A stretch of DNA of 34,997 bases from Oscillospiraceae bacterium (GTDB taxonomy: Bacteria > Bacillota > Clostridia > Oscillospirales > CAG-272), in the NCBI GenBank assembly GCA_015065135.1, contig SVQY01000023.1:1-34997 (forward strand). Direction: 5' to 3'. Positions within the stretch are counted from its first letter, which is position 1, and each line of letters starts with the position of its first letter. Shown one piece after another: positions 4,036 to 7,121 of the stretch. The notes beneath the pieces are model-generated. The model saw only the letters and a list, made by a program, of their open reading frames with translations, made no database searches and was not told the DNA's origin. The position numbers and the translations under genes are program-made.

Positions 4036-4107
4036 ATTTCGAGAGGATGCCCCCTATTTCGGGGTCTTCACCGTTTATCCGGGCAAGTGCCCAAAAGGAG
4101 GAAAAGT

Positions 4108-4392
4108 ATGACCATTAAACCCTTAGCTGACCGCGTTGTTGTCAAACTCGTGGAAGCAGAAGAAAAAACCAAAACCGGCATCATTCTCACTGCCGCTTCG
4201 CAGGAGAAGCCTCAAATCGCGGAGGTCGTGGCTGTAGGCCCCGGCGGACTGGTTGACGGCAAGGAAGTTGTTATGACCGTTAAGGTTGGTGATAAAGTCA
4301 TCACCAGCAAGTATTCCGGTACAGAAGTCAAGTGCGACGGCACCGAGTACAACATCGTTCGCCAGAGCGACATTCTGGCAATTGTAGAATAA
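4108..4392 (+). CDS. groES: Co-chaperonin GroES
   Basis: This is a 94-residue Cpn10, the heptameric lid of the GroEL chamber in the cytoplasm. It opens with MTIKPLADRVVVKLVEAEEKTKTGIIL: the mobile loop (EEKTKTGI) is at about residues 16-24, and VGDKV and the C-terminal DILAIVE are typical. The ATG at 4108 is chosen over the in-frame ATG 21 nt upstream because AGGAGG at 4096-4101 sits 6 nt before it and the family begins at this residue. The roughly 110-nt leader holds CIRCE and two small hairpins, one being GGGC-AAGT-GCCC at 4081-4092 just before the ribosome binding site. groEL follows after 15 nt. Confidence 0.98.
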   Translation: MTIKPLADRVVVKLVEAEEKTKTGIILTAASQEKPQIAEVVAVGPGGLVDGKEVVMTVKVGDKVITSKYSGTEVKCDGTEYNIVRQSDILAIVE

Positions 4393-4404
4393 GCGAGGTA
4401 TTAA

Positions 4405-6054
<1,650 letters not shown>

Positions 6055-6185: not shown

Positions 6186-6731
6186 TCAGATAGAAACCGT
6201 GTAATATACGCGCATTTCCGTGCATTCGTGATTCTTTGCATTCCGCCGCGCAACGCGTATCGGCATAATTCCAACATTGATCCACTCATTCGAGCACAAT
6301 TCTTCTATTCTTTTGGAAAACACCGTGCCAAATTGTCCCAAACGGTAGATGCGGCCGTCATTTCGGCGCAAGCCATCAAAATGCAGGCGCTTATTCCCAT
6401 CGGGCAATACCGTACACCGCAGCTCACAGTACTTTTTTAGCAAGGCTGTTTTTTCCATTTCCAAAAGAACCGCGTAAAAGGCGGAATCGAACGTAAAATC
6501 CCCGCACAGTTCACCATACTCTCCCTCGAGATAGCGCGTTCTGCCGACAAACGTGAATTCCCCTGTTTGCGCCTTTTGCAAAATTTCCTTTTTAATACCG
6601 TTAAAGATCTTCTGCGACCAAGCTTCAATCTGCTTTAACAAGGCTTCCTCAAAACGCTGTTGCAGTGCCTCCGCCTTTTCCTTGGTCAGAAGCGTGCTGT
6701 ATAATTCCCGCCAAAAGTCCATATCCGCCAT
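6186..6731 (-). CDS. Hypothetical protein, 181 aa, downstream of a structured leader
   Basis: I do not recognise this family. The protein is soluble, with no signal peptide or membrane segment. The N-terminal third is charged and probably helical (residues 1-55, rich in Glu, Lys and Gln). The C-terminal two-thirds alternate short strands and helices and end in a strand-like EMRVYYTVSI. The ATG at 6731 has GAGGG at 6738-6742, 6 nt upstream; a second ATG at 6722 is possible. It is a single-gene unit. It reads toward groEL and is preceded by a promoter and an attenuator-like leader (6750-6913), which suggests its expression responds to a specific signal. Coding is supported by the good ribosome binding site and intact frame, not by homology. 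Confidence 0.6.
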   Translation of the reverse strand: MADMDFWRELYSTLLTKEKAEALQQRFEEALLKQIEAWSQKIFNGIKKEILQKAQTGEFTFVGRTRYLEGEYGELCGDFTFDSAFYAVLLEMEKTALLKKYCELRCTVLPDGNKRLHFDGLRRNDGRIYRLGQFGTVFSKRIEELCSNEWINVGIMPIRVARRNAKNHECTEMRVYYTVSI

Positions 6732-6749
6732 GCTATTCCCTCAAACAAT

Positions 6750-6777
6750 AAAAAAGTGCGCAGCGTGAGCTACGCAC
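6750..6777 (-). terminator. Intrinsic terminator inside the 5' leader (attenuator)
   Basis: On the minus strand GTGCGTAGC (6777-6769), loop TCAC and GCTGCGCAC (6764-6756) form a 9-bp stem with one G-T pair, followed by TTTTTT (6755-6750). It ends only about 19 nt before the ATG of the downstream gene and 7 nt before its ribosome binding site. That is the usual place for a regulated leader terminator. Confidence 0.75.
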
Positions 6778-6913
6778 CGAAAAACGCATAGCTCCGATTG
6801 CTGCGACACAACTTTTTAACAACACGCACAAAGGTATGCTAAAAATGAGCATGCATTTTTACCATAGGTAAAAATACACACCTCTGTACGTTTTTATGCA
6901 GTTGTGCCGCAAC
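6750..6913 (-). ncRNA. Candidate riboswitch/attenuator leader RNA, class not recognised
   Basis: Reading the minus strand: stem P1 pairs 6913-6901 with 6812-6800 (13 bp, two wobble pairs), then comes an asymmetric internal loop. Stem P2 pairs 6891-6880 with 6835-6824 (12 bp). P2 closes a junction with hairpins 6878-6867/6863-6852 and 6852-6848/6840-6836. The 3' part holds two alternatives. One is the terminator 6777-6769/6764-6756. The other is an antiterminator in which 6794-6785 pairs with 6776-6767 (10 bp) and the P1 3' strand (6809-6800) pairs with the terminator 3' arm (6764-6756), one base bulged. Forming P1 would free the terminator, giving an OFF-switch logic. I see no T-box, lysine, TPP, SAM, FMN or cobalamin signature. 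A 6S-like RNA is the main alternative for the 5' domain. Confidence 0.6.
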
Positions 6914-6916
6914 ATC

Positions 6917-6945
6917 ATTTTAGCACAAATGGGTGGAATTGTAAA
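6917..6945 (-). promoter_or_regulatory. Sigma-A promoter of the structured leader
   Basis: On the minus strand TTTACA (6945-6940), a 17-nt spacer and TAAAAT (6922-6917) with an upstream TG (extended -10) make a strong promoter. The predicted start near 6910 coincides with the beginning of stem P1. Confidence 0.8.
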
Positions 6946-6981
6946 GGGTTAAATGGAAATTTACCGAAAACGATATGTTTT

Positions 6982-7050
6982 GTGTCATCCTGAGCGGAGT
7001 CGAAGTTTTGCTCCGCTCAGGATGACACGCTGATGGTGACAGGATGACAC
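6982..7050. repeat. Palindromic dispersed-repeat-like element
   Basis: Arms 6982-6999 and 7011-7028 form a perfect 18-bp inverted repeat built on GTGTCATCCTGAGCGGAG, with an 11-nt loop. CAGGATGACAC is repeated again at 7040-7050. From memory, elements built on TGTCATCCTGAGCGGAG are scattered in many gut bacterial genomes; copy number here is unknown. It lies outside genes. There is no T-run, so it is not a normal terminator. The remaining stretch 7051-7121 holds nothing I can identify. Confidence 0.6.
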
Positions 7051-7121
7051 GTAGCAGCATAGTAGGTCACGGACAAGGGAGACTCCCCTCCCCGCTGCCG
7101 TGCGGTGCGGTTGCCCTATCA

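Follow-up and report, generated by a model that had tools for sequence, protein, structure and literature searches.

The element described here lies on the minus strand of a 34,997-nt window, that is, the whole stretch of DNA that was analysed, immediately upstream of a gene for a 181-aa protein. This gene is convergent with groES/groEL (window 4087-6054, from ORF reading, with GroEL identified by Pfam), and the minus strand between 18.5 and 35 kb carries histidine genes followed by branched-chain amino-acid genes (ORF reading). An inverted repeat (tgtcatcctgagcggag...ctccgctcaggatgaca, window 6982-7028) is found directly upstream of the leader promoter; a sequence resembling it also directly precedes the leader promoter in locus L030, and it is probably a dispersed repeat. 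The parts of the leader and its surroundings are the following.

6945-6917, minus strand: promoter, with -35 TTTACA (6945-6940), a 17-nt spacer and the extended -10 TGC TAAAAT (6925-6917; -10 proper 6922-6917), read in the sequence
6750..6911, minus strand: structured leader RNA of about 160 nt, matched by covariance model R1 with 161.9 bits, R1 having been built from an alignment (A1) that includes the window sequence
6900..6911, minus strand: 5' strand of helix P1, by covariation
6802..6813, minus strand: 3' strand of P1, by covariation; complementarity between its last bases and the terminator 3' arm would give the outer antiterminator
6876..6886, minus strand: 5' strand of helix P2 with its apical extension, by covariation
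6829..6839, minus strand: 3' strand of P2, by covariation
6855..6875, minus strand: P3 hairpin AUUUUUA...UAAAAAU, by covariation, 93.8% paired
6847..6860, minus strand: apical switch strand AAAAAUGCAUGCUC, whose partner is 6794-6780
6780..6794, minus strand: switch strand GAGCUAUGCGUUUUU, whose partner is the apical strand or (6794-6785) the terminator 5' arm
6756..6777, minus strand: intrinsic terminator stem-loop with arms 6777-6769 and 6764-6756, 99.7% paired, with double changes in 6 of 9 pairs
6750..6755, minus strand: terminator run of six T, read in the sequence
6738..6742, minus strand: GAGGG, the likely ribosome-binding site of the downstream gene, read in the sequence
6186..6731, minus strand: gene of the 181-aa protein, start codon at 6731

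The leader thus ends 18 nt before the start of the gene. The promoter, P1, P2 and six-T terminator that a sequence-only reading of this DNA had pointed out are all present in the sequence, the promoter being of the extended -10 type as claimed, with TTTACA, spacer and TGC-TAAAAT elements. The leader that it had observed is real also by its folding strength, the 166-nt RNA reaching -73.9 kcal/mol against -43.8 +/- 3.6 for 200 shuffled versions, none of which was as low (z -8.4). An extended -10 adjoins the element in 129 of 156 related leaders, at a median distance of 5 nt, compared with 47 of 785 random places, so that the RNA should start with P1. In the window, transcription would be expected to start at about 6910, as predicted from the -10, and P1 would begin at +1. 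This start falls within the 13-bp P1 drawn originally, which stood as a covarying helix.

A DNA search of 59 related genomes gave similar stretches in 27, up to 8 in a single genome, and reading of the loci revealed a recurring anatomy of promoter, P1, apical motif, switch motif and terminator, mostly followed by a gene. P1 is of the type GCgACACAA/TTGTGTCGC, with bases that change together among loci, and the family motifs are an apical GGUAAAAAYGCnnnCUC and then CAAUCGGAGnnnGCRUUUUUCGG before the terminator. From 58 candidate loci, three that were not the element and one devoid of P1 (L043) were set aside, and the 54 leaders analysed, among which L064 was retained with a wrongly chosen apical segment, fell into a short subtype of about 160 nt (32 leaders, alignment A1) and a long subtype of about 210 nt that has one more helix (22 leaders, alignment A2). 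Model R1 was made from the short-subtype alignment. About 270 nt behind one long-type leader, a match to Gut-1 RNA (RF01706) was found on the minus strand (L022:1837-1916, 51.8 bits against a cut-off of 50).

Seventy short-type leaders, with a median pairwise identity of 0.67, were aligned to R1 and used to assess the nested helices. In P1, P2, P3 and the terminator taken together, 95.8% of cells are paired and double changes occur in 29 of 39 pairs; the nested structure holds 377 double-changed cells versus 104 +/- 9 after shuffling (0/500 shuffles reach the observed number), and pairing falls to 34-50% when the structure is slid, figures that come from an alignment fitted to that structure, and not to the apical/switch or inner antiterminator pairings discussed below. 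Duplex energies of each leader's own strands were also compared with those of swapped partners, permutations that leave kinship among leaders in place (n=70): z was -14.3 for P1, -11.0 for the terminator and -9.2 for P3, against -0.4, +0.3 and -0.2 for negative controls and -2.2 (80/5000) for the control pairing of the P1 5' strand with the terminator 5' arm. Lack of covariation among homologues had been named beforehand as what would speak against the leader; homologous leaders were found, and they do covary. The 12-bp P2 held as well, and the second of the two hairpins placed on top of it did not, since its bases extend P2 across the family (93.1% paired and with double changes in the 70 leaders). 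As judged from these comparisons, the 5' leader contains a conserved structured domain of the kind generally expected of riboswitches.

The same alignment supports pairings that are incompatible with one another. The apical motif AAAAAYGCnnnCUC can pair over 14 bp with the strand located just 5' of the terminator, which is also the strand that forms the antiterminator. For this apical-switch pairing, 94.7% of cells are paired and 33 are double-changed versus 9.6 +/- 2.5 in shuffles (0/500); the double changes are distributed over 7 of the 14 pairs, an extent reached by 14/500 shuffles. Own partners were better than swapped ones with a z of -11.3 (n=70), and of -9.2, -6.7 and -5.9 in reduced sets of 36, 19 and 14 leaders, the smallest comprising leaders under 66% alike. 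By comparative analysis, the pairing of 6860-6847 with 6794-6780 is the best-supported alternative pairing of the leader, and it was missing from the sequence-only reading.

That reading had instead proposed two antiterminator helices. The inner one (6794-6785 with 6776-6767) is present in the sequence and held in the short subtype, where 91.5% of cells are paired (0/500 shuffles), with 20 double-changed cells (1/500) compared with 21 when the pairing is slid by +2, and with both-side changes in 5 pairs, a number reached by 180/500 shuffles; own versus swapped partners gave z -7.9 (n=70), and -6.1, -5.2 and -4.2 for the sets of 36, 19 and 14. It was not supported in the long subtype, in which own partners were no better than swapped ones (n=22, z +0.4, 1339/2000 as low), even as RNAalifold draws it there; the apical pairing gave z -2.9 (9/2000) in the same 22 leaders. 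The outer antiterminator, between the end of the P1 3' strand and the terminator 3' arm, exists as complementarity, and its comparative signal is weak, going from z -4.7 (n=70) to -3.5, -1.7 (92/2000) and -1.9 (68/2000) upon thinning to 36, 19 and 14. Docking of the apical strand is a more general pairing than P3, because the P3 5' strand is incomplete in three or four of the 70 leaders and the apical A-run is nearly invariant, each of its first four positions being A in 69 or 70 of 70. An A-U-A between P1 and P2 and the GG before the A-run are also mostly conserved and may be candidate contacts for a signal. Base-pair conservation therefore indicates that the expression platform of the short subtype can adopt mutually exclusive folds.

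In the model that best accommodates these pairings, the leader would act in cis by transcription attenuation, with the polymerase either stopping at the leader terminator or reading into the gene 18 nt downstream. Five strands would form a chain in which each can pair with its neighbour, namely the P3 5' strand, the apical strand, the switch strand, the terminator 5' arm and the terminator 3' arm. In the predicted OFF state, with P1 closed, the apical strand (6860-6847) docks on to 6794-6780 and so hides the antiterminator strand; the terminator would then form. In the predicted ON state the apical strand is engaged in P3 and 6794-6780 pairs with the terminator 5' arm, which would allow read-through, and the end of the P1 3' strand may then pair with the terminator 3' arm. 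The signal tipping this balance would be a small molecule or an ion, less likely a protein, favouring the docked fold in the manner of a SAM-I-like OFF switch. Termination in vivo, signal binding and the direction of the response are here predicted from the sequences.

Unconstrained minimum folds of the 70 leaders agree with the link between P1 formation and termination that had already been suspected. Whole leaders gave the terminator in 44 cases and the antiterminator in 26, whereas folds that began only at the P1 3' strand, and so lacked the P1 5' strand, gave the antiterminator in 64 and the terminator in 5. P1 and termination thus look coupled, as the P1 3' end can extend the antiterminator. 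For the window leader, whose minimum folds are nested and do not represent docking, the terminator was obtained when folding began at 6915 and the antiterminator when it began at 6911 or 6910; the outcome hangs on a few 5' bases, which suggests that terminator and antiterminator are near balance.

Searched at its curated cut-offs, Rfam 15 gave no match in the window and none at the element in 38 loci, so the hit to a known class that had been named beforehand as a refutation did not appear. With laxer E-values (in the window up to 10, over 6600-7060), the overlaps at element loci were far below the cut-offs, as exemplified by mir-5014 (19.6 of 101 bits). The element was present in none of the searchable RNA catalogues checked. 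Among the papers listed, no title or opening of an abstract was found that describes it; the motif may figure in a supplement (e.g., PMC8040213). The proposal of an undescribed riboswitch or attenuator is supported by this absence of an Rfam family at cut-off together with homologous leaders that covary and mostly stand right before ORFs.

Two known RNAs nevertheless share features with the leader. 6S RNA forms an extended hairpin interrupted by an internal bubble, an outline that the leader also presents, and T-box leaders set a terminator against an antiterminator and occur in many copies per genome, as the leader does. RF00013 is not matched at the element, the Rfam T-box model is unmatched in the window and in related loci, and the only 6S-like match of the window genome lies elsewhere (C13:60373-60599, 42.5 bits, cut-off 46.4). 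The element is moreover multicopy and mostly placed before genes, and the 25 Pfam families listed for its targets include no amino-acid or tRNA-synthetase family. A 6S or T-box variant is thus hardly credible, being already refuted at the sensitivity of the models used.

Other classes resemble the leader in part. In OFF riboswitches of the SAM-I type, the P1 3' strand takes part in the antiterminator and the terminator lies just before the ribosome-binding site. The leader has the same folded 5' domain, use of the P1 3' strand and terminator placement, but differs in having no Rfam match, an apical docking strand, an adjoining promoter and mostly surface-type or orphan targets. The leader-peptide attenuators of the trp type rely on a chain of competing strands (1:2, 2:3, 3:4) comparable to that of the leader. 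Unlike them, none of the 70 leaders contains an AUG with a ribosome-binding site (GUG and UUG starts were left uncounted), and a leader-peptide attenuator was rejected on this count. The c-di-GMP (GEMM) riboswitches are multicopy and precede unrelated genes, surface proteins included, again as the leader does, whereas the leader has another size and fold and lacks an Rfam match.

The position of the leaders relative to genes was examined in 157 distinct copies, which remained from 176 matches once weak reverse-strand, contig-end and same-DNA repeats were dropped. An ORF with a ribosome-binding site, called with a permissive pattern, follows within 160 nt in 142 of them (median 20 nt; 109 of the 142 at 30 nt or less), and 15 have no recognised ORF behind, a further copy coming next in some of these. 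Sequence comparison establishes the helices, the short-subtype competing pairings and this tight position before genes. The arrangement bears directly on the possibility that the element is an independent gene for a small RNA, transcribed from its own promoter to its own terminator and merely neighbouring the next gene. The promoter-like sequence before 129 of 156 copies and the terminator would suit such a gene, as would tandem copies with no gene between them, four in L110 and three R1 matches on G191:C48; in L110:886-1667 each of the four has a promoter-like sequence and a terminator and only the last has a gene behind it. The regular succession of ORFs that are largely unrelated to each other argues against it, however, and one would not expect a plain small RNA to have an antiterminator pairing, which makes this explanation distinctly unlikely.

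The targets of the leaders include lipoprotein-like, BspA-type LRR, Cys-rich and other proteins. A lipoprotein-like signal, scored by a simple rule of our own, was found in 29 of 68 targets of at least 150 aa, taken from all loci, versus 20 of 302 control ORFs, taken from the other ORFs of 80 named-MAG loci (odds ratio 10.5). Pfam searches were performed on 111 of the 125 proteins starting within 60 nt, leaving out 14 fragments or repeats of a Cys-rich protein; the families listed include BspA LRR (18), DUF6809 (6), AMP-binding (3), YspA-like SLOG (2) and MazE/AbrB-like (2). A small Cys-rich protein, with a motif resembling FECCCDECDYxLLCFPEF, recurs outside the short set, where it stands behind 16 of 68 leaders, for example in the long-subtype loci L022, L037 and L052; within the short set it follows 0 of 57. 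In three loci (L013:1584, L190 and L194) the leader precedes an AMP-binding enzyme with GxPSIDKPWLKYY near its start. Seven of the 10 matches in genome G296 were inspected by eye, and behind each of the seven lies a protein of secreted, lipoprotein-like or membrane type. No shared pathway that would name a ligand was apparent among the targets.

The 181-aa protein itself belongs to no Pfam family above cut-off. It has four relatives with 63-65% identity, and an AlphaFold model built from six sequences has a mean pLDDT of 60.8. The predicted protein P0003 starts upstream, its extra residues reading like a translation of the leader (SCVAAIGAMRFSVRS..CALFYC in both). A distant relative occurs behind the leader copy of L028 (25% identity over 110 aa, E 2e-7 in a single comparison), and similarity to the protein behind L025 was not significant (E 0.084). 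The leader had been presented as the control of this gene; a specific tie between the two had to be rejected, given that the protein is found in 2 of 98 related genomes and R1 matches occur in 103 of the order's 295 sampled genomes (E 1e-4 or better, with at most 9 candidates scored per genome).

When 12 chosen genomes were searched again in full, 3 to 16 R1 matches were detected in each; the window's own genome, 84% complete, has one. In a phylum-wide sample searched with stricter filters, an R1 match was present in 1 of 299 genomes, the window's own, 3 of the 21 genomes listed belonging to the order. A search of public genome contigs with a tight DNA pattern gave 105 stretches, and the 80 of these listed bear titles such as Clostridia, Oscillospiraceae, Ruminococcaceae and similar, many from ruminant hindgut. 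Two of them are the same DNA as loci of G001 and G027 (L067/L050 and L070/L016) and thereby link the order to the Oscillospiraceae of NCBI. Phage or plasmid cargo was rejected as an origin, the exact pattern being found 0 times in viral contigs, in no plasmid and in 2 of 50,697 phage records. Both of these (L200 and L201) are unannotated human-faecal scaffolds named Bacteriophage sp.; read by ORFs with no family scan, L200 looks bacterial and L201 has an integrase-like ORF near the leader copy. Taken at the level of sequence, this is a real, multicopy family of attenuator-like RNAs spread across one order, and the up to 16 matches per genome together with the enrichment in lipoprotein-like targets fit a regulon.

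Such numbers before unrelated genes would also be produced by a mobile promoter-leader cassette spread by recombination, providing constitutive attenuated expression with no sensing, and the common flanks of the tandem copies in L110 and L095 are in line with this. Nevertheless, the competing pairings are kept by compensating changes among leaders that diverge to the median identity given above, which points to selection on switching, and the cassette is considered very unlikely. A protein-binding attenuator, in which an RNA-binding antiterminator protein and not a metabolite selects the fold, would have an identical two-fold anatomy, and many unrelated targets in one genome are also usual for protein regulators. 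Known sites of the BglG/LicT type need less than about 160 nt of conserved structure, however, and the leader, starting beside its promoter, exceeds such requirements; this explanation is unlikely, although it deserves some weight.

The reading that we favour is that of a conserved RNA that can pair in either of two mutually exclusive ways and is likely to act as a cis transcription attenuator of the downstream gene. That it works like a transcriptional riboswitch is well supported by the comparative evidence, the binding of a ligand being putative. A more specific proposal, to be held tentatively and with somewhat less than even confidence, is that the leaders constitute a new riboswitch class of one order of gut Clostridia, answering to one common signal and determining the composition of the cell surface in lipoproteins and BspA-type LRR proteins, in which the apical strand docks on the antiterminator strand in a three-way competition with no counterpart in Rfam.

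A regulatory RNA with no match in Rfam 15 is present in about a third of the sampled genomes of one Clostridia order. Since predicted surface lipoproteins are over-represented among its targets, the identity of the signal would show how the contact surface of these mostly uncultured, mostly gut Clostridia is set.
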